From Bacteroidota bacterium (GTDB lineage Bacteria; Bacteroidota; Bacteroidia; Flavobacteriales_D; Crocinitomicaceae), in the NCBI GenBank assembly GCA_016192075.1, contig JACPUU010000016.1:124001-188000 (forward strand): a stretch of DNA of 64,000 nucleotides, given 5' to 3'. Positions 15,070 through 29,932 of the stretch are shown piece by piece; the first letter of the stretch is position 1; each line of letters begins with the position of its first letter. The notes beneath the pieces are model-generated. The model saw nothing but the letters and a program-made list of their open reading frames with translations, was not told the DNA's origin and ran no database searches. The position numbers and the translations under genes are program-made.

Positions 15070-15099
15070 TTTGAAAAGTGAATGCATACTGACAAATTT

Positions 15100-16800
15100 A
15101 TGAAACACATTTTTTCAATTCTCACAGCTGTTATTCCGGTTATTTCGGTTGCCCAGCAAGCGTTATTCATTCCGGATACGCTTGTGGGCACATCGATTAA
15201 TCTGACCATGCATAAAGACAGTGTACAATTTTTTCCGGGCCAGATTTCGTACACGTATGCCTTTAATGCAAACAGTTTTCTGGGTCCGACACTTATTCTG
15301 AACCAGGGAGACAACGTCAGCCTTTTGGTAGATAACCAGATTGACGATACAACTACCGTACACTGGCATGGACTGCACGTACCGGCCATGTACGATGGCG
15401 GACCGCACACACCTATTTTTCCGGGTGATACCTGGAACCCGGTTTTTACCATCATGGACCATGCCGCAACCTATTGGTATCATCCGCACATGCACATGAA
15501 AACAGCTGAACAGGCCATTAAAGGAGCAGCAGGTTTAATCATTGTTCGTGATGCAGGCGAGGCTGCGTTAACGCTTCCCAGAAAATACGGCGTAGACGAT
15601 TTTCCAATCATCGTTCAGTGCCAGCAATGGGATTCTGTAAACCAGGTAATGCCGCTTGGAATGCAGGACAGTACCTTAATGGTGAACGGAACAATAGATC
15701 CGTATCTCGATGTTCCTGCACAGGTTGTGCGGCTGCGTTTTTTAAATGCATCGGGTGAACGCGCATTTAATTTCGGGTTTACCGGCAACATGCCGTTTTA
15801 TCAGATTGCTTCTGACGGCGGACTATTGAACGAACCGTTTCTGACAACCCGGGTTCGGCTTGCTCCCGGTGAACGGGCTGAAGTGCTGTTGGATCTTTCT
15901 GCCATGAATGGTCAGACATTTTACCTGATGTGTTATGGATCAGAATTGCCAATGGGTGTACAGGGTGGTCCTACAATGCCAATGCCTCCCGGTTCTCCGC
16001 CAATGGACAGTCCGCTGAACGGTGTTGATTACAACATTCTTCAATTGAACGTGGTTGTGCCTACGGCAGATCCGGTTACGACCATCCCCGGTATTTTAGC
16101 AAGTAACATACCTTACCTTGTGTCTGATGCAGATGCCTACCGTACCGTAAAATTTACGGCCGATAGTGCAATGGTGATGGATGGTCCGTTTTATTTCAAT
16201 GACAGCACGTTTAACATGATGCGCATTGACTATACCATTCCGCTCAACAGTGTTGAGGTTTGGGAACTGATCAATGAAACCATGGTGGCACATCCGTTTC
16301 ACATACACGACGTTCAGTTTTTTGTTCTGAACCGCAACAGTATTTTACCCGGCCCCGAAGAAAGCGGACGAAAAGATGTGGTGCTGGTATTACCCGGAGA
16401 TACACTGCGGTTCATTACCAAATTTGATGATTTTGCTGATCCAATGATTCCATACATGTACCACTGCCACATTTTAATGCATGAAGACGATGGCATGATG
16501 GGGCAATTTATTGTGCATCCAAGCGCCATTGGTATTTCAGAAACTGAGATAGAAAACCAGGTTTCGGTTTATCCAAATCCGGTGAATGGTAATTTAATTA
16601 CCGTTGAGTTGGCACAAAGCAGCAGTTCAACCGTTTTGTTCGAATTGTATGATGCCAGCGGCCGCTTGATTTTATCAGATCAACAGGTGATGGAATCAAC
16701 CAAAACAGCTATTGATTTAAGTACGGTGTCACCGGGAATTTATGTGCTGAGAATAACCAGCGGATCAGAAATTTATGCGGTAAATGTTTTAAGACAATAA
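15100..16800 (+). CDS. T9SS-secreted multicopper oxidase
   Basis: A 566-residue protein, started at MKHIFSIL because this gives a clean signal peptide (cleavage near SVAQQ); the upstream ATG at 15082 adds six residues. All four copper-ligand blocks are present: HWHG (His88, His90), YHPHMH (about 127-132), HPFHIH (about 397-402) and YHCHILMHEDDGM (about 452-464) with the type-1 copper Cys and His ligands. A methionine-rich stretch (about 281-306, MPMPPGSPPM) resembles the Cu(I)-binding segments of CueO-like cuprous oxidases. The C-terminus (VYPNPVNGN to VLRI) is a T9SS sorting domain. It probably oxidises Cu(I) or organic substrates with O2 at the cell surface. Confidence 0.93.
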   Translation: MKHIFSILTAVIPVISVAQQALFIPDTLVGTSINLTMHKDSVQFFPGQISYTYAFNANSFLGPTLILNQGDNVSLLVDNQIDDTTTVHWHGLHVPAMYDGGPHTPIFPGDTWNPVFTIMDHAATYWYHPHMHMKTAEQAIKGAAGLIIVRDAGEAALTLPRKYGVDDFPIIVQCQQWDSVNQVMPLGMQDSTLMVNGTIDPYLDVPAQVVRLRFLNASGERAFNFGFTGNMPFYQIASDGGLLNEPFLTTRVRLAPGERAEVLLDLSAMNGQTFYLMCYGSELPMGVQGGPTMPMPPGSPPMDSPLNGVDYNILQLNVVVPTADPVTTIPGILASNIPYLVSDADAYRTVKFTADSAMVMDGPFYFNDSTFNMMRIDYTIPLNSVEVWELINETMVAHPFHIHDVQFFVLNRNSILPGPEESGRKDVVLVLPGDTLRFITKFDDFADPMIPYMYHCHILMHEDDGMMGQFIVHPSAIGISETEIENQVSVYPNPVNGNLITVELAQSSSSTVLFELYDASGRLILSDQQVMESTKTAIDLSTVSPGIYVLRITSGSEIYAVNVLRQ

Positions 16801-16810
16801 CACCAAAAAT

Positions 16811-18262
16811 ATGACAGGCAGATTTAAACTACTTCTGGGATTTATAACATTGGGCAGCACTTTAACGGCGCAGGAATTTGTTCCGTCAGCGCCGGTAAAC
16901 GTAGCACCGGGGTATGGCAATTATCACCCGCAGATTGAGGTTTTGGGTGATGGTGAACTGGGCGTTGTCTGGACATCATCAGCCACCAATGATTTGTTTT
17001 TTGCCAGGCGAAACGGTATAGACCAGTTTGATGTTCCGGTAAAACTTAACCCGGACAGTCTCGATGTTCAGGATTATAACTGGAGTGGTGCTGATCTCGC
17101 TGTCTGGGGAAACAACGTGTATGTTATTTTCCGCAGCCTGGGTTATGAAGACGGGCATGTTTACCTGGTAAAATCAACTGACAACGGGTTGACGTTTGGT
17201 GATACTGTTCGTGTTGATAACCTGGCATCGGGTTTTGCACAATTTCCAGATGTTGCTGTTTACAATGATACCGTTTTTGCCACGTACATGAAGTATGATG
17301 ACATGAGCATGAATCCGCGTTACATACTTACGCGGTCAGTTGATGGCGGAAACACGTTTGAAACAGAAGTTGAAGCGGGCTCAATTATCGGTGACGAGGC
17401 ATGTGATTGCTGCCAGCCTGAAATTGTCGTAAATGCAGATAAGGTCCTTCTTTTTTTCAGAAACAATGCCTCAAATATCCGTGATATAAAAGCAGTTGTT
17501 TCGTATGATAGGGGACAGACGTTTAGTGATTGGATATCGGTTGATGATCACAACTGGCTCATTACATCGTGTCCAAGTACCGGGCCCGATGCGCGGTTTG
17601 TAGGCAATGATGTAGTGGTTGGTGCTTATCGTACCATGGTTTCAGGGCAGCCAAAAATCTTTTTGAATGAATACAACCTGGCTACAGATGCCTCCCTGAA
17701 CCTGGTTGATGTATACATGGACGGAGCCTCTGGTTCAGGCATTAATTATCCGCAAATTTATTATGCCGGTAACCTGCTGGGCATTGTGTGGGAAGGCCTT
17801 GGAGAAAGTACAGATGTTTTTTTCAATGCAAGTAACACAGGTGCTGCCGGAATTATTCCGGCCAATGCCATAAATGTGACAGACGCTGTTGGCTCACAGT
17901 CAAAACCGGATATGGCTATTTTGAACGGATCATTTCACATTGTTTATGCTGAGTTATCCGGTGCAGAGGTGAAATATTGCCGGGTCAGTTCCGTTAACGG
18001 AACTGCTGAAATGGCTGATAATGCAGTATCGGTTTATCCAAATCCGGTTAATGGAAACCAGGTAACGGTTGAACTTAAAAACAGCAAATCAGCAGGTATT
18101 CAGGTGCAGCTTTTTGACTTGTCAGGCAGGTTGGTTTTTTCAACAACAGCGCAGCCGGTTGCAGGGAAAATATACTTAAATCTTGATGCTGTTTCGGATG
18201 GATCTTATTTGCTTCGGATAAACGATGGCGTGTTCAGTTATGATTTAAAACTAATTAAATAA
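16811..18262 (+). CDS. Secreted Asp-box (sialidase-like) propeller with T9SS sorting domain
   Basis: A 483-residue secreted protein with a signal peptide ending near LTAQ. Repeated Asp-box signatures (STDNGLTFGD, SVDGGNTFE, SYDRGQTFSD) indicate a six-bladed sialidase-type beta-propeller. However, I do not see the full arginine triad of a true sialidase, so enzymatic sialic-acid cleavage is not supported. A cysteine cluster, EACDCCQPE (about residues 195-203), sits in the propeller and could bind metal or form disulfides. The C-terminal VYPNPVNGNQVTVEL segment is a T9SS sorting domain closely similar to that of the upstream oxidase. It starts 10 bases after the oxidase stop. Confidence 0.82.
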   Translation: MTGRFKLLLGFITLGSTLTAQEFVPSAPVNVAPGYGNYHPQIEVLGDGELGVVWTSSATNDLFFARRNGIDQFDVPVKLNPDSLDVQDYNWSGADLAVWGNNVYVIFRSLGYEDGHVYLVKSTDNGLTFGDTVRVDNLASGFAQFPDVAVYNDTVFATYMKYDDMSMNPRYILTRSVDGGNTFETEVEAGSIIGDEACDCCQPEIVVNADKVLLFFRNNASNIRDIKAVVSYDRGQTFSDWISVDDHNWLITSCPSTGPDARFVGNDVVVGAYRTMVSGQPKIFLNEYNLATDASLNLVDVYMDGASGSGINYPQIYYAGNLLGIVWEGLGESTDVFFNASNTGAAGIIPANAINVTDAVGSQSKPDMAILNGSFHIVYAELSGAEVKYCRVSSVNGTAEMADNAVSVYPNPVNGNQVTVELKNSKSAGIQVQLFDLSGRLVFSTTAQPVAGKIYLNLDAVSDGSYLLRINDGVFSYDLKLIK

Positions 18263-18268
18263 CCATTT

Positions 18269-18451
18269 ATGAAATCACGCAAGTTAATTTACCTGATGCT
18301 GTCGCTGACATTTTTAATTTCCTGCGGAGGACAGACAAGTGATCAGAATAAACCGGGGATTTATAAATGCCCCATGGAATGCGAAGGGGAGAAAACATAC
18401 GCAGAACCCGGAAAATGCCCGGTATGTGAAATGGATCTTCAAGTACAGTAA
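18269..18451 (+). CDS. Small lipoprotein with heavy-metal-binding domain
   Basis: A 60-residue lipoprotein: signal peptide with lipobox FLISC (Cys19), then a heavy-metal-binding domain (HMBD, YHS-like) with Cys34 and Cys38 in KCPMEC and Cys50 and Cys53 in KCPVC plus Met55. The same CPM...CPxC pattern occurs in the two CusB-type adaptors of this window. It starts 6 bases after the propeller gene and is almost certainly cotranscribed. It likely binds Cu or a similar soft metal at the membrane surface. Confidence 0.85.
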   Translation: MKSRKLIYLMLSLTFLISCGGQTSDQNKPGIYKCPMECEGEKTYAEPGKCPVCEMDLQVQ

Positions 18452-18486
18452 TTAATATCAGCTTCTAAAAAAACCGAAACTTAAGT

Positions 18487-20544
18487 ATGAAAAAATTCTT
18501 AACGAGTTGCGCTTTCAGTATTCCTGCAATATTGGTAAACGCGCAGTGTCCCGTTGGCCAATCAGAAGTTACCATAGATGTAACTACAGATGCATATGGG
18601 TATGAGATTTATTGGGAATTGGTTCCGGGAGGAAACAGCTGTGGAACGGGAACCCTTTTTGCTGGCGGAAATATGGCCGTGGGATGTGGCGGTGGCGGAG
18701 CGCAAAATCAAACACCGGGTGGTTACGCAAACAATACCACAGTAAGTGAAGGGCCCTGGTGCCTGACTGATGGCGCCAGTTACGACCTTATTTTTGTAGA
18801 TGACTGGGGAGATGGTGGAGCGTCATTTACGATTAACGTTGCCGGGTTTCCTGTTTTTCAATGGTCATCAGGGAGTGGGGCAGGCTCAGGTTCAGTTTAT
18901 ACATTTGTAGTTGAACCACCACTACCGTGGGATATTCAGGGTGAAAGCATATCGGTGTTTAATTATGTAAACATTGGAAATGTTGATATTACCGGAACCC
19001 TGTTTAACTCCGGATCAAATGTGGTGACCAGCTTCGATATAAATTATCAGATAGATAACGGAGCAATTATTACCGCACCATTGTCCGGGTTAAACATTCC
19101 GCCGTTTACCGATTATAGTTTTATACATCCTACACAATGGAACGCTGCAGCCAATGGTACTTATTCACTAAAAATATGGGCAAGTAACCTGGATGGAAAT
19201 GCAGACATGGATAATACCAATGACACCATTCAAAAAAACGTAATTGTTGGTCCGGGTATCCCAAATCTGGTTGACAACTATCTTGGAATTATTCCGGAGC
19301 AAACAGTAATCGCAAACGGATCAGATGGTATAGAAATTCCCCGTGATCTTGACTTCCATCCTACATTAAGTAACAATGAACTTTGGGTGATTTTGAAAAG
19401 CACTGAGGCAAGCGGCGGCAAAACGGTAAAAATTTCAGATGCCGGTGAAATTGGTCAAACCGAGCTTGTGCAGCAGGATGATAATGCCTGGCACTTTATG
19501 TCATTACCTACCGGCATAGCATTCAGCGAAAACGGAAATTTTGCTACCTCGCCGGGGGTGTATGATTCTAACCATGATGGTGGTGCACCTTTTACAGGAC
19601 CGGCATTATGGTCAAGTGATCCGGCTATTTACGCTCAACCTTCAGGGGGCAATGGAAGCCATTTAGACATGTTGCATGAAAGTCCATATAGTATGGGAAT
19701 TGCACATGAGTCAGACAACGTTTTTTGGGTGTTTGATGGCCAGAATAATTGTGTTACCCGTTATGATTTTGGAATAGATCACGGGCCTGGTAACAGTGAT
19801 CACAGTGATGGAATTGTTAGAAGATATAGTGGAATGGGACTGTCTGAAGACCCGGCGTATGAAGTATCCAGTCACCTGGTTTTGGATAAGGCTACTAATT
19901 GGTTGTATATTGTTGATACGGGAAATGACAGGATTGTCAGACTTGACATTACCTCAGGTTCGCAAACAGGCACCTTTGTTCCGTATGAAGGTACATTTGA
20001 ATCTTCCATTTATGGCGGATATACATCTGAAGTTTATGTTTCAACCGGATTAACTCAGCCAAGCGGAATCGACATTGTGGAGAACCGAATGATTGTGTCA
20101 GACTATACAACAGGGCAAATCATGATTTATGATATCTCCGGATCAACGGTTGTAGAACTTGGACAGATACAAACAGGTACTCCGGGCATCATGGGAGTTA
20201 AATTTGGTCCTGATGGAAAAATATGGTATGTAAATGCAATTACCAATGAGGTTGTCAGGCTTGAGTTTAATGATGTAACCGGACTTGATGAAAGTAACGG
20301 GTCAGAAATTTCGGTTTATCCGAATCCTGTCAATACGGGGGTAATAACCCTTGCTACAATGATTGATGGAGCCTTTCAGGTTAATATTGTGAATGCGACC
20401 GGCCAGGTTGTTGCAAATTATATGTTGAATGAGCCGGTTTCAAAAATCGATGTTTCAGCTATTGCACCCGGACATTATATTCTCCAGGTAATAGATTCGA
20501 ATAATGGTACAGTAATCAACAAAAAAATTGTTGTTTCAGAATAA
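18487..20544 (+). CDS. Large secreted protein with NHL-like propeller and T9SS sorting domain
   Basis: A 685-residue protein with a signal peptide ending near LVNAQ. Residues 22-145 are a Gly-rich domain (TIDVTTDAYGYEIYWEL, FVDDWGDGG) of a kind often repeated in Bacteroidota surface proteins. Residues 150-255 look like a CARDB/Ig-like module. Residues 260-610 contain blade-like segments (NWLYIVDTGNDRIVRLD, PSGIDIVENRMIVSDYTTG, GVKFGPDGKIWYV) of an NHL-type propeller. A T9SS sorting domain (ISVYPNPVNTG to KIVV) ends it. The function is unknown; the operon context suggests extracellular copper-related chemistry or adhesion. Confidence 0.8.
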   Translation: MKKFLTSCAFSIPAILVNAQCPVGQSEVTIDVTTDAYGYEIYWELVPGGNSCGTGTLFAGGNMAVGCGGGGAQNQTPGGYANNTTVSEGPWCLTDGASYDLIFVDDWGDGGASFTINVAGFPVFQWSSGSGAGSGSVYTFVVEPPLPWDIQGESISVFNYVNIGNVDITGTLFNSGSNVVTSFDINYQIDNGAIITAPLSGLNIPPFTDYSFIHPTQWNAAANGTYSLKIWASNLDGNADMDNTNDTIQKNVIVGPGIPNLVDNYLGIIPEQTVIANGSDGIEIPRDLDFHPTLSNNELWVILKSTEASGGKTVKISDAGEIGQTELVQQDDNAWHFMSLPTGIAFSENGNFATSPGVYDSNHDGGAPFTGPALWSSDPAIYAQPSGGNGSHLDMLHESPYSMGIAHESDNVFWVFDGQNNCVTRYDFGIDHGPGNSDHSDGIVRRYSGMGLSEDPAYEVSSHLVLDKATNWLYIVDTGNDRIVRLDITSGSQTGTFVPYEGTFESSIYGGYTSEVYVSTGLTQPSGIDIVENRMIVSDYTTGQIMIYDISGSTVVELGQIQTGTPGIMGVKFGPDGKIWYVNAITNEVVRLEFNDVTGLDESNGSEISVYPNPVNTGVITLATMIDGAFQVNIVNATGQVVANYMLNEPVSKIDVSAIAPGHYILQVIDSNNGTVINKKIVVSE

Positions 20545-20584
20545 CTGTGACTGGTGTAAGAAATTTTGCAGACTTTTTAGGATT

Positions 20585-21199
20585 ATGAAAATACACATGA
20601 GATTATTTATAATGGCGTTACTTTTTTTGTCGTCCTCAAAGTTATTGTCTACGGTACATGACATTAAAACGGTTGCGGCAACCTTTACCCCTGATACAAC
20701 CTATGCGCAGATAGGTGATACCATTAAGTTTATGATCAGCATTGGGCATGATGTGCTTGAAATTACAAATGATTCATACAACACAAATACGATAGATGCA
20801 TTTCCCGGAGGTTTTGGATTTACAAGTGGCACACATTATTATGAATTGCAGGAGGCAAAAACATTCTACTTTGGATGTACCTATCATTTGGCTTCGTCAC
20901 AAATGAAAGGAGTTATAATAGTAACTGATCCCGCCGCCGGGGTTTTAATAAATGATGTTACTGAAAACACGCTGATTTATCCCAACCCGACATCAGGCTT
21001 TATTACCATTCAAATACCTGAAAATCTTAAGTATGGAGAGGTTCAGATAGTCTCTATGGAAGGTGAACTTGTTTATCAGCAGAGGCTGGGTAATAGTTCA
21101 GTATGTTTCATTGATCTAAGCCATTTGAATCCGGGAATATTCCAGGTAATACTAAGTGACGCTGACAGGTTAAAAAGAATGAGTGTAATAAAAAAATGA
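20585..21199 (+). CDS. T9SS-secreted cupredoxin (plastocyanin-like)
   Basis: A 204-residue protein starting at MKIHMRL, which gives a normal signal peptide; the longer frame from 20528 overlaps the previous gene and lacks this form. Residues 26-115 form a single cupredoxin-like domain with a credible type-1 copper site: His55 (SIGHDVLEI), Cys98 and His101 (FGCTYH) and Met107. The spacing Cys-x2-His-x5-Met is one residue longer than in plastocyanin. A T9SS sorting domain (LIYPNPTSGFITIQI to RMSVIKK) follows. It could pass electrons to or from the multicopper oxidase three genes upstream; that partnership is inference. Confidence 0.82.
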   Translation: MKIHMRLFIMALLFLSSSKLLSTVHDIKTVAATFTPDTTYAQIGDTIKFMISIGHDVLEITNDSYNTNTIDAFPGGFGFTSGTHYYELQEAKTFYFGCTYHLASSQMKGVIIVTDPAAGVLINDVTENTLIYPNPTSGFITIQIPENLKYGEVQIVSMEGELVYQQRLGNSSVCFIDLSHLNPGIFQVILSDADRLKRMSVIKK

Positions 21200-21653
21200 G
21201 GTTCAGATTTTACCGAAACCCTATTTAAAGAAATGAAATTACAATTGAGTTTGCGCAACCATCATGTAGCTGAAGATTCTGGGTTGGGGGCATGGCGGAG
21301 ACGCAGATAAAATAGCATTGTTAAATGCCTGCCTGTCAACGGGCAGGCAGGTGGAGCGGCGGGGTCTGTGGGTTAAGTCTCCCGCTGCTCCTTACCAGGC
21401 AATCGGTGTGCTACTATAGCTTGTGTTGGACGATTAAAATGTGCAAATCAACGAAGTCAGTAACAAGCAGATTGTTTTATAGAATTATAGTCCGGTTATA
21501 CGAAACACAAAGGGTATGAAAGTCAGTTAAAAGGCTGATTTGACTCATACAGAATATATTTAAATAGCGTAATATTTACATATTAAATTGTCCTTGGTAT
21601 GAAAACGATGAAGGAGCCTGTCATAAAAATTTCTGAAATCATACATCTGCAAA
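21200..21653. other. Intergenic region upstream of the ATP-cone nuclease operon
   Basis: No gene is credible here. It contains a compound hairpin (21326-21391) and the 14-mer GACGCAGATAAAAT (21300-21313), which recurs inverted at 33977-33990. A -7-like TATATTTA occurs near 21555, with no confident partner element. Confidence 0.6.
21326..21391. repeat. Compound double-hairpin (REP-like) element
   Basis: TGCCTGCC (21326-21333) pairs with GGCAGGCA (21342-21349). Two bases further, GGAGCGGCGGG (21353-21363) pairs with CCCGCTGCTCC (21381-21391) with one G-U pair. The high GC content contrasts with the surroundings, and no T run follows, so it is more like a dispersed palindromic element than a terminator. 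Confidence 0.75.
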
Positions 21654-22520
21654 ATGGAAAAAGACGATCAGATAACAATAACCAAAGCAAGCGGAGAATA
21701 CGCTCTCTTTTCAGCTGAAAAACTTGAACGGTCTCTGATGAATGCCGGTGCTTCAGCTGACCTGGCAGCATCAATAGCAGATGAGATACGGCCAAAATTG
21801 TATGCCGGTATTTCTACAAAAAAAATATACCGGATTGCGTTTAATTTGCTCCGGAACGCATCAAGCCCGCTTGCGGCCAGGTATCATCTTAAATGGGGCA
21901 TTATGGAGCTGGGCCCTTCTGGTTTTCCGTTTGAAAAATTCATTGGTGAAATACTCCGGCATCAGGGATACGCTGTAAAAGTTGGTGAAATAGTAGCAGG
22001 TAAATGCGTGAATCACGAAGTAGACGTAATAGCTGAAAAAGACCATCATCACTTTATGATTGAGTGTAAATATCACAATCAGCCCGGAACAATCAGTGAT
22101 GTGAAAATACCACTTTACATTCAGTCTCGCTTTAAAGATGTGGAGGCAACGTGGATTAAAATGCCGCAGCACAACCAAAAAATTCACCAGGGCTGGGTGG
22201 TCACAAATACAAAATTCAGCCGTGACGCCATTCAATACGGCAACTGTGCCGGACTGAAACTCGTGGGGTGGGATTTTCCCATAAAAGACAGTTTAAAAGA
22301 TCAGATCAGCCGGCTGGGCCTTTACCCGGTTACCTGCCTTACCAAACTCACCAAAGCTGAAAAACAACAACTGCTTGAACGAAATGTGGTGCTGTGTAAA
22401 GAGTTGTGTCACCATGAAAAAATGCTGGCAAGTATGGGAATAAAAAATTCCCGTATCCGTGAAATACTGAATGAAGGCCGTGAAATATGCAGTCAATTAA
22501 TAAAGAGTGAGAAGCATTAA
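21654..22520 (+). CDS. ATP-cone / PD-(D/E)xK (Mrr-like) nuclease fusion
   Basis: A 288-residue cytoplasmic protein. Residues 7-85 form an ATP-cone, the nucleotide-sensing domain best known from ribonucleotide reductase and NrdR (ITKASGEYALFSAEKLERS, AGISTKKIYRIAFNLL). Residues 92-210 are an Mrr-like restriction endonuclease domain with an intact PD-(D/E)xK core: Asp124 (HEVDVIAE) and Glu137-x-Lys139 (MIECKY). The remaining 75 residues are helical and unassigned. No methyltransferase is nearby, so classic restriction-modification is unlikely; nucleotide-gated DNA cleavage or repair is possible. It overlaps the P-type ATPase gene by 14 bases and leads a four-gene operon. Confidence 0.85.
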   Translation: MEKDDQITITKASGEYALFSAEKLERSLMNAGASADLAASIADEIRPKLYAGISTKKIYRIAFNLLRNASSPLAARYHLKWGIMELGPSGFPFEKFIGEILRHQGYAVKVGEIVAGKCVNHEVDVIAEKDHHHFMIECKYHNQPGTISDVKIPLYIQSRFKDVEATWIKMPQHNQKIHQGWVVTNTKFSRDAIQYGNCAGLKLVGWDFPIKDSLKDQISRLGLYPVTCLTKLTKAEKQQLLERNVVLCKELCHHEKMLASMGIKNSRIREILNEGREICSQLIKSEKH

Positions 22521-25137
22521 CCAACATAGCTCCCCGTTTTCAGTTAATGCTGAAGAAATTTTCACTGCATTGCAGAGTGATAGCGCGGTTGGTTTGTGCC
22601 AGCCTGAGGTTGAAAACCGCCTGAAAGAATTTGGTGCCAATAAAATTGAAGAAAAAGCACGTAAAAGTTTGTTCCTCATTTTTCTGAGCCAGTTTAGGAG
22701 CCCTATTGTGTGGTTACTGGTTTTTGCAGCGGGCTTGTCATTTTATGTGAGTGAATGGCTTGACAGTGTCGCCATTCTTACCATAATACTCATCAATGCA
22801 CTGATTGGTTTTTACATGGAATATCAGGCCGAGCATTCAATGAACGAGCTTAAAAAACTGGCCACCGTTCCCGCAAAAGTTTTAAGAGATAAAAACCTGC
22901 AGGAGATAGATGCTGCATACATTGTGCCCGGCGATATTGTATACATTGAAGCGGGAGATATGATTCCGGCAGATGGCAGAATTTTTACGGCGACACAGTT
23001 GCAGCTGGATGAATCTGCTTTAACAGGAGAGTCGCTGCCGGTAGAAAAGCAAACAGAAAAACTGGCGGTCACCACCCCCCTTGCTGAGCGTAACAACATG
23101 CTTTATAAGGGAACGTATTCTACAAAGGGCAATGGCTACATGATTGTTACCGATACAGGCATGAATACAGAGCTTGGTACAATTGCGCGAATGGTTCAAT
23201 CGGCTGACCAGGTTGCCACGCCGCTGGAAAAAAAACTGGAGGACTTCAGCAAAAAACTCATTTGGATTACGGTGGGTCTGGTTGCCGTAATTTTTACCTC
23301 CGGAATTCTTAACGGGCAGTATTTTCCCGAGATGCTTGAAACAGCGATTGCACTTGCAGTGGCTGCAATACCTGAAGGCCTGCCCATTGTTGCAACACTT
23401 GCTTTGGCCCGGGGAATGCTCAAAATGGCAAAGCACCAGGTCATTGTAAAAAAACTCTCTGCCGTTGAAACCCTGGGTGGCACCAATATCATCTGCACCG
23501 ATAAAACAGGTACGCTCACCCAAAACAAAATAGAAGTAACAACAGTTGTCACGGCAGCTGATAATGCAGCTGGTCGTGAAATAAGTAATCAGATAGCTGT
23601 TTTATGTAACACGGCTGAACTGCATGAAAGTGCTGCCGGTTTTTCAGAAATTGGTGATCCGCTGGAGACAGGGCTGCTGAAATTTGTGGTAAAAAACCAG
23701 TTGAATATTCAGAGTTTCCGAAACAGGTTTCCTAAAATTAAAGAAGAACCCTTTTCGTCTGAAACAAAAATAATGGCCACACTCCATCAGACAGAAGAGG
23801 GGTTTACCATTTATGCCAAAGGCGCTTCTGAAGAAATACTGAAACGCTGCACCGGTATTTTTGAAGCACAGGGTATTGTTGAACTGAATGCTGAAAAAAA
23901 ACACTATTGGACACAAAAAGCAGAAGAACTCGCCAACACCGGGTTAAAGGTAATTGCGGGTGCCTATAAACCGCATGCAGCTGAAACAGCTGTTCTTCAT
24001 ACGGATCTTGTTTTTGTGGGTTTGTTTGGTTTGATTGATCCGCCGAGGGAAGATGTTTTTGCCGCCATTGAAGAATGTAAAACAGCCGGTATCCGGGTAA
24101 TAATGATAACCGGAGATCACCCGGCCACTGCAAAAAATATTGCCGTTAAACTGGGCATTGCTGCTGATGCCAATGTAACAATAATGACCGGCCAGGAAAT
24201 GAATGCATATGAAAACCTGACCGAAAAAGAAAAATCAGTATGGCTGAATACGACTGTATTTGCACGCGTAAGCCCCAAACAAAAGCTGGATCTCATCGCT
24301 GTTTTGCAGGAACATAAGAATATTGTAGGCATGACCGGCGATGGGGTGAACGATGCCCCTGCATTGAAAAAGGCAGACATCGGTATTGCTATGGGAGTGC
24401 GGGGCACACAGGTGTCACAGGAAGTAGCAGATATGGTTTTGAAAGACGATTCATTTAACTCCATTGTAATTGCAATCAGGCAGGGCCGCATCATTTTTGA
24501 CAACATCCGCAAATTTGTTATTTATTTACTCTCCTGCAACCTGAGTGAGTTAATCGTGATTGCTTTTGCCTCAGTCATGAACATGCATTTTCAGTTGTTT
24601 CCGCTGCAAATTCTCTTTATCAATCTCATTACCGATATGCTTCCTGCACTTGCCCTGGGGGTTACTGCCGGCAGTCCGGATATTATGCGCAGGCCGCCGG
24701 TAACGGTAAATGAACCTATTGTAGACCGCAAACGGTGGATAACCATTTTCTTTTATGCTTCAGTAATTGGAGCAACAAGTATAGGCGCTGTTTTTTTAAG
24801 CCATTTTACGGTTCATAAAACGGAGTTATGGAATCCTGAACTTTGTAACAACATTTTGTTTTTTACACTTATTTTTTCGCAGTTGCTGCATGTGCTCAAT
24901 ATGGGAAGCAACAGTGCCGTCTTCTTTAAATCTGAAGTGTTCCGCAATACGCATGTATGGGGTGCAATAGCACTTTCAGTCATTCTTTTAATGGTCATGT
25001 ACGTTATAGAACCGGTAAGAAAAGTGCTGTCAATTTATGAAATGTCGGCAAGTGACTGGCTTATTATTTTATCGGCAAGTATTGTTTCCCTGTTGATTAT
25101 TCAGCTGGGTAAAAAATTAAAAATAGCGGTTCAATGA
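22507..25137 (+). CDS. P-type (P2A-like) Ca2+-transporting ATPase
   Basis: An 876-residue P-type ATPase starting at a GTG that overlaps the preceding gene by 14 bases. Catalytic motifs are complete: TGES (173-176), DKTGTLTQN with phosphorylated Asp332, and GDGVNDAP (611-618). The ion-binding residues of SERCA site II are recognisable: PEGLP in M4 (289-293), NLSEL in M5 and NLITD in M6. This points to Ca2+ (or Mn2+) export rather than heavy-metal transport; there is no CPx motif or metal-binding N-terminus. Ten membrane helices are expected. Its stop overlaps the start of the SRPBCC gene (ATGA). Confidence 0.9.
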   Translation: MRSINQHSSPFSVNAEEIFTALQSDSAVGLCQPEVENRLKEFGANKIEEKARKSLFLIFLSQFRSPIVWLLVFAAGLSFYVSEWLDSVAILTIILINALIGFYMEYQAEHSMNELKKLATVPAKVLRDKNLQEIDAAYIVPGDIVYIEAGDMIPADGRIFTATQLQLDESALTGESLPVEKQTEKLAVTTPLAERNNMLYKGTYSTKGNGYMIVTDTGMNTELGTIARMVQSADQVATPLEKKLEDFSKKLIWITVGLVAVIFTSGILNGQYFPEMLETAIALAVAAIPEGLPIVATLALARGMLKMAKHQVIVKKLSAVETLGGTNIICTDKTGTLTQNKIEVTTVVTAADNAAGREISNQIAVLCNTAELHESAAGFSEIGDPLETGLLKFVVKNQLNIQSFRNRFPKIKEEPFSSETKIMATLHQTEEGFTIYAKGASEEILKRCTGIFEAQGIVELNAEKKHYWTQKAEELANTGLKVIAGAYKPHAAETAVLHTDLVFVGLFGLIDPPREDVFAAIEECKTAGIRVIMITGDHPATAKNIAVKLGIAADANVTIMTGQEMNAYENLTEKEKSVWLNTTVFARVSPKQKLDLIAVLQEHKNIVGMTGDGVNDAPALKKADIGIAMGVRGTQVSQEVADMVLKDDSFNSIVIAIRQGRIIFDNIRKFVIYLLSCNLSELIVIAFASVMNMHFQLFPLQILFINLITDMLPALALGVTAGSPDIMRRPPVTVNEPIVDRKRWITIFFYASVIGATSIGAVFLSHFTVHKTELWNPELCNNILFFTLIFSQLLHVLNMGSNSAVFFKSEVFRNTHVWGAIALSVILLMVMYVIEPVRKVLSIYEMSASDWLIILSASIVSLLIIQLGKKLKIAVQ

Positions 25138-25733
25138 GTGTGAAAAAAACATACGGATACCTGCTGCTTATTACTTTCTGGTGCATGGGGGCAATTTCTA
25201 TTGCGCAGGAAACCACAGATTCATTAAAACAAATTTCGCGTGAAAAAATAAAAAAAATTGAACGGACAGAGGTAATAAATGGCAAACCGGAAGAAGTGTT
25301 TGCGTTTATGGATGATATCCGCAACACGGGCCGTCACATGACAGAAAGCAGTGGTGCTATGATGGGGGGTAAATTAAAACTGGAGTGGCTGACCACCCAC
25401 ACAACCGGTTTAGGAACCAAATACAGATGGGAGGGGAAAGTACTTGGAATGAAAATGGACTTTACGGTTGAAGTCAGTAAATGGGTTGAAGCCCAACAAA
25501 AAATATGGGGCACGGTGGGTGAGGCAAAAATGATTGTCATCACCTGGTTTGAAATGCACCTTGAGTTAACACCCAATGAAGATGGTACAACAACCGTGAA
25601 ACTGCGAATTCTATTTACCAAATCAAAAAACATTCCCGGGTTTTTGTTGGGACGGCGCTACTCAATCTGGTGCGTAAAAAGCATGTTAAAAGACACCAAA
25701 AAACATTTTGACAAAAATGAAAAAAACAGGTAA
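25134..25733 (+). CDS. Exported SRPBCC-family protein
   Basis: A 199-residue protein with an N-terminal signal or anchor (YGYLLLITFWCMGAISIA). The rest resembles the SRPBCC (START-like) fold used to bind hydrophobic ligands: INGKPEEVFAFMDDIRN, GLGTKYRWEGKVLG, EVSKWVEAQQKIWGT, and a long C-terminal helix around SIWCVKSMLKDTKKHF. No ligand can be predicted. It overlaps the ATPase stop by four bases and the pfkA start by 17 bases, so its translation is tightly linked to both. Confidence 0.75.
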   Translation: MSVKKTYGYLLLITFWCMGAISIAQETTDSLKQISREKIKKIERTEVINGKPEEVFAFMDDIRNTGRHMTESSGAMMGGKLKLEWLTTHTTGLGTKYRWEGKVLGMKMDFTVEVSKWVEAQQKIWGTVGEAKMIVITWFEMHLELTPNEDGTTTVKLRILFTKSKNIPGFLLGRRYSIWCVKSMLKDTKKHFDKNEKNR

Positions 25734-26706
25734 ATTAAAAAAGATAGCCGTTTTAACCTCTGGCGGTGATGCTCCCGGTTTGAATGCTTGCATTCGTGCT
25801 GTGGTGCGAACAGCCGTGTTTAACGGGTTAACCGTAATGGGTGTTCGAAAAGGTTTTGAAGGGCTGATTGCCGGCGATTTTGTATCAATGAATGCCAGCA
25901 GTGTAAGTGGAATTATTCACTCAGGGGGCACATTGCTTCAGTCTTCCAGGAGTGAGCGGTTTAAAACAAAAGCCGGAAGAAAAAAGGCGTTTGAACAAAT
26001 TACAAAAGCAAACATAGATGCTGTTATTTTAATTGGTGGAGATGGTTCCTTTGAAGGAGCAAAAACATTTACCAAAGAATATGAAATTCCGTTTATCGGA
26101 ATTCCCAAAACCATTGACAACGATATTTCCGGTACGGATATCTGTATTGGTTATGATACCGCATTGAACACCGCCATGCAGGCGATTGATAAAATAAGAG
26201 ATACGGCTCAATCTCACGAACGTATTTTTATTGTCGAAGTGATGGGGCGTGATTCCGGTTACATTGCTTACGGGGCAGGTTTGGCCGGAGGAGCGGAGGC
26301 TATTTTGATTCCTGAAACAAAAGCAGATGCTGAAAATCTCTTGCAGGTTTTAAAAAAAGGCTGGAAGCGTGACAAGTCATCCCTGATTGTTGTAGTGGCA
26401 GAAGGTGATGAAAGCGGCGGTGCAGGTAAAGTAGCTGAGTTGATTGAGAAACACAATCCCGGTCAGTATATCGGCATTTGTATTTTAGGGCATACACAGC
26501 GGGGAGGCAGTCCAACAGCGGCTGATCGTATTTTGGCCTCAAAATTCGGATACGGTGCTGTTGAAGCACTCCTCAGCGGAAAAAGAAACAGCATGATTGG
26601 CATCAAAAAAAATGAAATCTGTTTTACACCGCTTGCAAAAGTCAAAAAGCAGCATTTGGCCGTAACGGGCAATTTGCTGAAAATGATCACCACCCTGACA
26701 GGTTAA
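25717..26706 (+). CDS. pfkA: 6-phosphofructokinase
   Basis: A 329-residue glycolytic enzyme phosphorylating fructose 6-phosphate. The ATG at 25717 is preferred over the TTG at 25708. Motifs: TSGGDAPGLNACIR (ATP site, start of protein), GGDGSFEGA (ATP-type; PPi-dependent enzymes have GGDD), PKTIDNDISGTD with the catalytic Asp, and VEVMGRDSGYIA (substrate binding). Length matches bacterial ATP-PFK. It overlaps the SRPBCC gene by 17 bases and closes the operon. The presence of a glycolytic enzyme behind a nuclease and a cation pump is unexpected; it may be a second, conditionally expressed PfkA. Confidence 0.94.
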   Translation: MKKTGKLKKIAVLTSGGDAPGLNACIRAVVRTAVFNGLTVMGVRKGFEGLIAGDFVSMNASSVSGIIHSGGTLLQSSRSERFKTKAGRKKAFEQITKANIDAVILIGGDGSFEGAKTFTKEYEIPFIGIPKTIDNDISGTDICIGYDTALNTAMQAIDKIRDTAQSHERIFIVEVMGRDSGYIAYGAGLAGGAEAILIPETKADAENLLQVLKKGWKRDKSSLIVVVAEGDESGGAGKVAELIEKHNPGQYIGICILGHTQRGGSPTAADRILASKFGYGAVEALLSGKRNSMIGIKKNEICFTPLAKVKKQHLAVTGNLLKMITTLTG

Positions 26707-26764: not shown

Positions 26765-29700
26765 ATGATAAATTTTTGCATAAACTGGGCGCTGAAAAAC
26801 AAAGTCATTGTACTGATGATGGCTTTCGTGATCACTATTTATGGTGTTTTTTCGGTACGTACAACACCTGTGGATGCCATTCCGGATTTATCTGAAAACC
26901 AGGTCATCATTTATACCGAGTGGATGGGTGCCAATCCACAGTTAATAGAAGATCAGATTACGTTTCCATTGGTCAGCAATCTGCAGGGTATTCCTGATGT
27001 GAAAAATATCCGGGCATCTTCCATGTTTGGCATGAGTTTCATTTTTGTGATTTTTGAAGACGATACAGACATTTATTGGGCAAGGTCGCGCGTGTTGGAA
27101 AGACTCAATTATGCACAGCGGTTATTACCTGAAGGGGCCACACCAACACTTGGGCCTGACGGAACCGGGCTGGGCCATGTTTTCTGGTATACACTGGATG
27201 CACCCGGGTATGATTTGGGTGAGTTGCGTGCCATCCAGGATTGGTATGTCAGGCTGGCACTTCAGTCAGTAGAAGGTGTGAGTGAAGTAGCCTCTTTTGG
27301 CGGCTTTCAAAAACAATACCAGGTAGTAATTGATCCTTACAAACTGCGTTATTACGACCTGACCTTAATGGAGGTGGTTGATAAAATCAAAGCCAATAAC
27401 AACGATGTCGGTGGCCGCAAATTTGAGCAGGCAGATGTGGGGTATATTATCCGCGGACTGGGGTTTATCAAAAACATAGAGGAGATAGAAAACATTCCGG
27501 TAAAAACCATTAATTCAATTCCTGTTCTCATCAAAGATATTGCAACCGTACAAACCGGTGGTGAGCTGCGCCTGGGAATTACTGACTTTAACGGAGAAGG
27601 AGAACGGGTGGGTGGAATCATTGTGATGCGCTATGGTGAAAACGCCAAAGAAGTAATTGAACGCATAAAAACAAAAATGGCTGAGGTGGAAAAAGGGTTG
27701 CCTGAAGGCGTCCGGTTTGACATTGCTTACGACCGGTCATGGCTGATTGATGAAACCATAAATACGCTGAGCAGTGCCGTGACCGAAGAAATTATCATTG
27801 TAACTATTGTGCTGTTTATTTTTCTCTTTCACGTGCGGAGTGCGTTGATCGTAGTTATTACCATTCCCCTGTCTGTACTGATTGCATTTATTCTGATGAA
27901 CCTCTTTGGCATATCGTCCAATATTATGTCGCTGGCGGGGGTAGTTCTGGCGGTAGGTGATCTCGTTGATGCGGGAATTGTAATGGTCGAAAACGCCATG
28001 AAAGAACTGGGCGCTGAAAATCCTGACAAAAATTTCAAATTAACAGACATTGAGCGTAAAAAAAGAATTGAAATTTCATCTAAACTAATTGGTAAAGCTG
28101 TCTTTAATTCAATTCTGGTAACGCTGATTTCATTCAGCCCTATTTTATTTCTCGAAGGGCAGGAACATAAACTTTTCTCGCCGCTTGTCTGGACTAAAAC
28201 ATTTGCCATGCTGGGCTCTGCTTTTGTTGCCATCTTCCTGGTTCCGGTTTTGATGGTGGTGCTGCTGAAAGGTAAAATTCTCCCTGAAAAAAAGCATCCC
28301 GTTTCGCGCTTTTTCATTTGGATTTACACCCCGGTAATCAATTGGTGTCTGCGCTGGAAAAAAACGGTTTTGATAAGCAGTGTTGTATTAATCCTTGGCA
28401 GTATACCGCTTGTTATGAATCTGGGTACTGAATTTATGCCGCCGCTTGATGAAGGTTCAATTCTCTACATGCCGGTGACCATGCCTGATATTTCAAATTC
28501 AGAAGTTAAGCGCATTCTCCAGGTTCAGGATAAACTAATTCTTTCAGTGCCTGAAGTAGATAAAGTACTTGGCAAAGCCGGCCGCGCAAACACCGCCACT
28601 GATAATGCACCAATGAGTATGATTGAATCCATTATCTTATTAAAGCCGCAATCAGAATGGAGACCAGGCATTACAAAAAGTGACATTATTGATGAGTTGA
28701 ATTCAAAACTGCAGATTCCGGGAGTCATTAATGGCTGGACACAACCCATCATCAATCGTATTAATATGCTTTCAACCGGTATTCGTACAGATGTGGGTAT
28801 TAAAGTCTATGGCCAAAACCTGGATACCATAAATAAATACGCCCAGTTGATGAAAAAAGAACTGGAAGGTGTTGAAGGGGTAAGAGATTTGTATGTTGAC
28901 CCGATTACCGGTGGAAAATACATTGACATAAAAATCCGTAAAGATGAAATCGGGCGCTATGGTTTGTCAGTTGATGATGTCAATATGTTTATAGAAACGG
29001 CATTGGGTGGCATGAATGTTACAACCGTTTTAGAGGGCAGACAACGCTTCAGTCTCAATGTCAGGTATGCGCAGAGTTACAGGGACAATATCCGAAAATT
29101 AAATGAACTGCATATTCAGACCATGGATTACGGACCCATTCCGCTTTCGTCTGTTGCAGAGATAAAAATCACCAATGGACCACCCATGATAACCACCGAA
29201 AATGCAATGCTGCGCGGTACCGTATTGTTTAACGTCCGTGATCGCGATATGGGCAGCACGGTAAAAGATGCCAAAGAAAAGCTGGAAGAATTTATCCGGA
29301 ATCTGCCGCAGGGATATTACGTGGAATGGAGCGGTCAGTATGAAAACCAGGTAAGGGCAGAAACACGACTGAAAATAATTATTCCCATTGTGCTTGTTGT
29401 CATTACGGTGATTCTGTACTTTACGTTTAAATCATTCAGGGATGTTGCCATTGTGCTAAGTGCAATTCCGGTTGCGCTTGTCGGCGGGGCTTATTCACTT
29501 TACTTTTTTGATGTGAATTTTTCGGTTGCGGTTGCCGTTGGGTTTATCGCACTTTTTGGTGTGGCTATTGAAACCGGTGTATTGATGCTTGTTTACCTGA
29601 ACAATGCCGTTTTTGAAAAAAGCAAACGACTTAACGAAACAAATTTACCCATGACAAAACAAGCGATTCAGGAAGCCATATATGAAGGTGCTGCACTTCG

Positions 29701-29932
29701 TTTACGTCCAAAACTGATGACGGTTCTGGTAGATATTATTGGTTTGTTGCCGGTGCTAATGGCAACAGGTATAGGCAGTGATGTAATGAAACCAATTACC
29801 ATTCCGTTTGTATTCGGGCTTATCACATCCACACTTTTTGTACTGATTGTGTTACCCGTTTTATATGCGGTTGTCCGCGAAGGGGAATTAAAACATAAAG
29901 GAATGATTTCAGTGAAAGAATTTGAGGAATAA
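26765..29932 (+). CDS. cusA: CusA-type Cu(I)/Ag(I) RND efflux permease
   Basis: A 1055-residue inner-membrane proton-driven RND pump of the heavy-metal (HME) family. The three methionines that bind Cu(I)/Ag(I) in E. coli CusA (573, 623, 672) are all present at a constant offset of four: Met569 (LYMPVTM), Met619 (PMSMIES) and Met668 (INMLSTGI). The TM4 signature DLVDAGIVMVENAMK is also of the monovalent-cation type (VDxxxxxxENxxK) rather than the divalent DFGxxxDGA type. Twelve membrane helices and two large periplasmic loops are evident. It begins the operon with tolC and two adaptors, 58 bases after pfkA. Confidence 0.93.
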   Translation: MINFCINWALKNKVIVLMMAFVITIYGVFSVRTTPVDAIPDLSENQVIIYTEWMGANPQLIEDQITFPLVSNLQGIPDVKNIRASSMFGMSFIFVIFEDDTDIYWARSRVLERLNYAQRLLPEGATPTLGPDGTGLGHVFWYTLDAPGYDLGELRAIQDWYVRLALQSVEGVSEVASFGGFQKQYQVVIDPYKLRYYDLTLMEVVDKIKANNNDVGGRKFEQADVGYIIRGLGFIKNIEEIENIPVKTINSIPVLIKDIATVQTGGELRLGITDFNGEGERVGGIIVMRYGENAKEVIERIKTKMAEVEKGLPEGVRFDIAYDRSWLIDETINTLSSAVTEEIIIVTIVLFIFLFHVRSALIVVITIPLSVLIAFILMNLFGISSNIMSLAGVVLAVGDLVDAGIVMVENAMKELGAENPDKNFKLTDIERKKRIEISSKLIGKAVFNSILVTLISFSPILFLEGQEHKLFSPLVWTKTFAMLGSAFVAIFLVPVLMVVLLKGKILPEKKHPVSRFFIWIYTPVINWCLRWKKTVLISSVVLILGSIPLVMNLGTEFMPPLDEGSILYMPVTMPDISNSEVKRILQVQDKLILSVPEVDKVLGKAGRANTATDNAPMSMIESIILLKPQSEWRPGITKSDIIDELNSKLQIPGVINGWTQPIINRINMLSTGIRTDVGIKVYGQNLDTINKYAQLMKKELEGVEGVRDLYVDPITGGKYIDIKIRKDEIGRYGLSVDDVNMFIETALGGMNVTTVLEGRQRFSLNVRYAQSYRDNIRKLNELHIQTMDYGPIPLSSVAEIKITNGPPMITTENAMLRGTVLFNVRDRDMGSTVKDAKEKLEEFIRNLPQGYYVEWSGQYENQVRAETRLKIIIPIVLVVITVILYFTFKSFRDVAIVLSAIPVALVGGAYSLYFFDVNFSVAVAVGFIALFGVAIETGVLMLVYLNNAVFEKSKRLNETNLPMTKQAIQEAIYEGAALRLRPKLMTVLVDIIGLLPVLMATGIGSDVMKPITIPFVFGLITSTLFVLIVLPVLYAVVREGELKHKGMISVKEFEE

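Follow-up and report, generated by a model that had tools for sequence, protein, structure and literature searches.

The components that meet at the locus described here are already known separately, namely AF1548-like nucleases, ATP-cones and operons of the TP-PRPP synthetase-MBL type. The predicted catalytic residues of AF1548 are D38/E51/K53 (PMC1821046), and in NrdR mutation of K50, K62 or V48 impairs nucleotide binding (PMC9110341). In Bradyrhizobium diazoefficiens, the transcripts of bll3117-bll3116-bll3115 (annotated as TP, PRPP synthetase and MBL) are up 5.1-, 7.7- and 15.4-fold at 0.5% oxygen (PMC6515984), bll3117 and bll3115 are down 6.6- and 30.6-fold without FixK2, and phosphoketolase and acetate kinase also fall in its absence (PMC9104804). 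Hypoxic M. tuberculosis raises ctpF, PfkB, HspX and Usp (PMC8044303). Searching the open-access literature, we found no description of a nuclease carrying an ATP-cone, of its pairing with a beta-CASP protein or of the whole neighbourhood in which the two occur.

We analyzed a stretch of 64,000 nucleotides from a Bacteroidota genome (contig JACPUU010000016.1; hereafter the window), in which four ORFs on the + strand overlap by 14, 4 and 17 bases, as the preliminary description had stated and as the ORF coordinates bear out when the last gene is started at its ATG (25717); starting it at the alternative TTG (25708) lengthens the last overlap to 26 bases. These ORFs encode a nuclease with an ATP-cone (21654-22520, 288 aa), a P2A (Ca2+-type) P-type ATPase whose GTG start lies within the nuclease gene (22507-25137, 876 aa), an SRPBCC-like small protein whose N terminus is hydrophobic and signal-like (25134-25733, 199 aa) and an ATP-type 6-phosphofructokinase (PFK; 25717-26706). 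On the gene map, a CusA/CzcA-like RND efflux pump (26765-29932, + strand) begins 58 bases past the PFK gene and is probably transcribed by read-through from the same operon; it is homologous (46% identity) to the CusA/CzcA protein encoded beside a P2A ATPase on a plasmid of Criblamydia. Upstream of the operon, positions 15082-21199 encode a multicopper oxidase together with three proteins, of which two or more have YPNPV-type C-terminal sorting-like tails, including a cupredoxin-like protein (20528-21199). A scan for sigma-70 promoters and terminators gave a signal no better than chance.

The nuclease scored above the Pfam cut-offs for Mrr_cat (36 vs 21 bits) and for the AF1548-like C-terminal domain (AF1548-like_C, 28.5 vs 23.9 bits), and its residues 96-278 match the solved structure of archaeal AF1548 (PDB 1y88) with an E-value of 5e-34. 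The D...E-x-K triad D124, E137 and K139, which corresponds to D38/E51/K53 of AF1548, is invariant in 44 aligned homologues of 34-76% identity, so the preliminary description was right to call the PD-(D/E)xK site intact. It was equally right that the nuclease comes without a methyltransferase, none being linked at the locus, and for this reason we rejected a restriction-modification system. The ATP-cone passed its Pfam cut-off narrowly (26.5 vs 25.8 bits; 28.9 bits in the genome search). Within it, K11 and I/V9 are kept in all 44 homologues and K23 in 43 of 44, with G14 and F19 also conserved, and in our own alignment, which sets the register, K11, K23 and I9 fall on NrdR K50, K62 and V48. From these residues, nucleotide binding by the ATP-cone appears likely. 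The equivalents of NrdR R51 and E56 are A12 and A17, neither of which the family conserves (16 of the 44 have E at position 17), so the ligand specificity may differ from that of NrdR. A shallow AlphaFold model (four sequences, pLDDT 50) places, with moderate confidence, two strands (E8-10 and E16-18) and four helices between residues 21 and 84; this hairpin with four helices over residues 8-84 is the layout of an ATP-cone, the model being poor outside the N-terminal domain. The protein thus belongs, with its catalytic site intact, to the AF1548-like PD-(D/E)xK family and bears an ATP-cone at its N terminus; its activity is predicted from these features.

The ATPase has the full P-type set of Pfam domains (Cation_ATPase N/C and E1-E2) and the motifs DKTGTLT, TGES, PEGLP and NLITD, which cover the P-type core and the P2A cation site; its best NCBIfam models are PMR1- and SERCA-type Ca ATPases, at scores below the equivalog cut-offs. 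The 14-base overlap between nuclease and ATPase genes recurs in four other loci, three with nucleases 67-76% identical to that of the window (L035-L037) and one at 58% (L039), none of which has an SRPBCC or PFK gene at this position. Since the 14-base overlap is conserved and the other two involve genes absent there elsewhere, the overlaps alone are no evidence of unusual coupling. The SRPBCC protein matched Polyketide_cyc2 with an E-value of 2.5e-4, below the Pfam cut-off, and had no homologue in a search of 197 other Bacteroidota genomes. The PFK has a Pfam E-value of 3e-108, exceeds the PFKA_ATP equivalog cut-off (401 vs 371 bits) and is the second of its genome, another PFK gene being present on contig C13, which answers the question of a second pfkA. 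Near the nuclease, PFK genes were found in L044 and L048, alongside class I FBP aldolase and LDH, that is, in 2 of 60 loci vs 0 of 40 control regions, which is not significant. The window PFK has GGDGS, as in ATP-type enzymes, yet PKTIDND where those of C13, L044 and L048 have PGTIDND; Lys at that position is usual in PPi-dependent phosphofructokinases. The four-gene operon is therefore not conserved, and we rejected it as a conserved unit because the SRPBCC protein is without relatives and PFK is rarely linked, whereas the nuclease-ATPase core is conserved. Conserved linkage is thus absent for SRPBCC and, less firmly, for PFK, but present for nuclease and ATPase.

The three closest loci (L035-L037) share the order ArsR-nuclease-ATPase, L039 sharing the nuclease-ATPase part. 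Their ArsR-family gene (104-116 aa) precedes the nuclease gene with a 4-base overlap and is full-length (HTH_5, E-value 1.5e-8), and before it lies a long AT-rich inverted repeat, identified by eye (for instance TTTGAGTATCTGAATATTT...AAATATTCAAATACTCAAA in L036), which is probably the ArsR operator. The window keeps a homologue of this leader/promoter block (21560-21598, + strand) followed by the first ~44 bases, or ~15 codons, of the ArsR gene (21599-21642, + strand, MKTMKEPVIKISEII), running nearly straight into the nuclease start, the rest of the gene being deleted. Aligned with L035, L036 and L037, leader and gene start scored 57, 59 and 53, against 41, 38 and 36 for the best of 200 shuffles. 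In the window, the inverted repeat has decayed in its right half. Remnant and degraded repeat together suggest that the ancestral operon was probably under ArsR control and that the window copy, now probably free of its own repressor, escaped it.

To determine the distribution of the fusion and its neighbours, we relied on whole-genome searches, as a single-sequence scan of contigs returned three relatives only. The ATP-cone/AF1548-like nuclease was found in 39 of 247 sampled Bacteroidota genomes, counting that of the window, and in 22 of 199 genomes of its order; tabulating the neighbours, as had been proposed, yielded 63 mapped loci. Homologues also lie on plasmids of Pontibacter actiniarum and Criblamydia sequanensis (Chlamydiota), so the cluster can move; a search of viral contigs returned no relative, and there is thus no sign of phage carriage.

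Among the 63 loci, the nuclease gene is followed directly, on the same strand, by a gene for an MBL/beta-CASP/RMMBL protein in 34 and by one for a P2A ATPase in 5. Comparing 60 loci with 40 control regions away from the nuclease and largely from the same genomes, we found beta-CASP genes near the nuclease in 37/60 vs 0/40 (p 7e-12), and 39 of the 46 beta-CASP genes detected in 59 nuclease-bearing genomes lie at most 1.5 kb from it. This aCPSF1-like MBL/beta-CASP protein is the usual partner of the nuclease family, a fact not visible from the window alone. Its best NCBIfam models are type VII Cas14 (405 bits, cut-off 800) and archaeal aCPSF1 (299 bits, cut-off 580), which makes it a sub-threshold relative of both and probably an RNase; it matched no PADLOC model. 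Linked examples are L080:13588-14946, which gave the 405-bit score, and L052:10493-11863; given that score, Cas14 may have arisen from something close to this stress-linked family. In the genome of the window, the homologue is an orphan on contig C9 (G000:C9:57645-58982) with unrelated neighbours. The strict coupling of four genes proposed in the preliminary description is therefore not supported, given an SRPBCC protein without relatives, a seldom linked PFK and a beta-CASP gene that is unlinked here.

In the same comparison, the enrichment was clear for P2A ATPases (23/60 vs 2/40, p 8e-5) and universal stress proteins (Usp; 17/60 vs 1/40, p 5e-4) and marginal for Crp-type response regulators (18/60 vs 4/40, p 0.015), GAPDH-II (7/60 vs 0/40), LDH (6/60 vs 0/40) and Hsp20 (6/60 vs 0/40), all p values being optimistic because loci of the same genus are not phylogenetically independent. 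Fewer loci carry Hsp20, PFK, aldolase, GAPDH-II, LDH, phosphoketolase, glycogen phosphorylase (glgP), acetate kinase, TP or PRPP synthetase. Plasmid clusters with the nuclease include phosphoketolase, glgP, acetate kinase, TP and PRPP synthetase, the first three of these accompanying the homologue on the Criblamydia plasmid, and in L035, L044, L079, L080 and L121 the nuclease is followed by the TP, PRPP synthetase and MBL families. In L040, a protein adjoining the ATP-cone nuclease is a fusion of an ATP-cone to a glucoamylase-like protein (L040:10850-12385), which suggests nucleotide control of glucan breakdown; a glucoamylase-family gene 61% identical to it lies close to the nuclease on the Criblamydia plasmid (L080:18649-19950).

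The recurring families (beta-CASP, P2A, Usp and metabolic genes) fit a state of failing respiration and suggest that a low-energy response includes cleavage gated by nucleotides. At about even chances, the locus is one lineage's own form, stripped of its regulator, of a low-energy survival neighbourhood that recurs elsewhere and includes such cleavage; the nuclease, predicted to cut DNA or RNA, is probably one part of this survival kit. The ATP-cone would read ATP/dATP or adenylate charge and, as in RNR and NrdR, convert the nuclease between an inactive oligomer and an active one, so that nucleic acid would be cut upon a collapse of energy or growth. The partner beta-CASP RNase, where present, would degrade RNA; in loci with the phosphorylase/PRPP-synthetase pair, sugar phosphate could be salvaged and pass to glycolysis or phosphoketolase. 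In the genome of the window, the P2A ATPase, presumably co-expressed, would remove Ca2+/Mn2+ leaking in as membrane energy drops, and the extra phosphofructokinase would raise substrate-level ATP production. No TP homologue was detected in the genome of the window, in a search that had no internal positive control, and with the beta-CASP gene unlinked the complete salvage route is not present in this genome. The stress or energy-state module of the preliminary description thus survives in part: P2A and Usp enrichment, the metabolic genes of the Criblamydia plasmid and the Bradyrhizobium parallel speak for it, and the strictly coupled four-gene unit is not supported.

We weighed this low-energy reading against three others. 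The nuclease might serve against phages or plasmids as a Type IV-like (Mrr/CARF-effector-like) effector whose activity nucleotide levels control, its neighbours being incidental. CARF nucleases are built in the same way, with a ligand-sensing domain joined to a PD-(D/E)xK nuclease, the distribution is patchy with homologues on plasmids, the partner RNase has its sub-cut-off score to type VII Cas14, and PADLOC returned weak matches to CARF-PDDEXK (1.7e-5) and to the Mrr-like nuclease of ZorD (5.4e-5). However, these matches are partial, which with the stress and metabolic neighbours does not place the protein in Type IV or another known defence system; the neighbourhoods are not marked by defence genes, and the linked beta-CASP protein is itself without a PADLOC match, so we regard a defence role as unlikely.

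A chance pile-up in a metal-resistance island, in which four genes of independent origin came under a single promoter and overlap through operon compactness alone, would explain the multicopper oxidase and CusA-type genes flanking the operon, the absence of SRPBCC and PFK from this position elsewhere, and the deleted regulator. The nuclease-P2A order and overlap kept in four other loci, together with the general enrichment of P2A near the nuclease, go against it, and it is to our mind no likelier than a defence role. In RNR and NrdR, the classical role of ATP-cones is to signal dATP/ATP (PMC9110341, PMC5794259), and the nuclease could accordingly serve housekeeping or repair tied to dNTP pools through a sensor of that kind, unrelated to energy stress; but a protein found in so limited a share of Bacteroidota genomes is not universal, and no RNR or repair gene is prominent beside it in the annotated clusters, which leaves this the least probable of the readings, and distinctly improbable.

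A stronger form of the low-energy reading holds that ATP-cone nuclease and beta-CASP RNase act together as a two-nuclease switch not described before, which is conserved in Bacteroidota, occurs also on a plasmid from Chlamydiota, and would read ATP/dATP, cleave cellular (or invading) nucleic acid at energy collapse and, in full clusters, feed salvage and fermentation. We consider it rather unlikely, if a little less so than a defence role. Should the low-energy reading be right, nucleotide status would directly control a nuclease that is firmly coupled to an RNase and to emergency metabolism, energy charge would be linked to nucleic-acid turnover in dormancy, and a function would be given to the AF1548-like nuclease family, for which we found no assigned role in the open-access literature, its structure having been public since at least 2007.

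Among known systems, the DosR/hypoxia regulon of Mycobacterium resembles the nuclease loci, by analogy only, in its mix of cation P-type ATPase, phosphofructokinase, Usp and Hsp20, and differs in that no ATP-cone nuclease is reported in it; the mycobacterial PfkB also belongs to a different family from the window PFK. Bradyrhizobium bll3117-bll3115 has the same three families that lie downstream of the nuclease, matched by annotation and not by sequence, but neither an ATP-cone nuclease nor a P2A ATPase is reported in that operon. A beta-CASP homologue on a Bradyrhizobium plasmid has neither TP nor PRPP synthetase beside it, so the chromosomal TP-PRPP-MBL operon is not confirmed by sequence. 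The CARF-PD-(D/E)xK nucleases Can/Card share the combination of a ligand-sensing domain with a PD-(D/E)xK domain (a weak profile match over ~54 residues), whereas the window protein has an ATP-cone in place of CARF, a domain that Pfam did not match in it; nor was a CRISPR locus seen. With Archaeoglobus AF1548, a predicted restriction-endonuclease-like protein, it shares the nuclease fold, the C-terminal domain and the catalytic residues; the matched region of the solved chain begins after the ATP-cone of the window protein, and no ATP-cone match was found there. Like the ribonucleotide reductases (NrdA/NrdB/NrdD) and like NrdR, the window protein carries an ATP-cone at one end of an effector and keeps the equivalents of K50, K62 and V48; unlike them, it lacks conserved R51/E56-equivalent contacts, and its effector is a nuclease.
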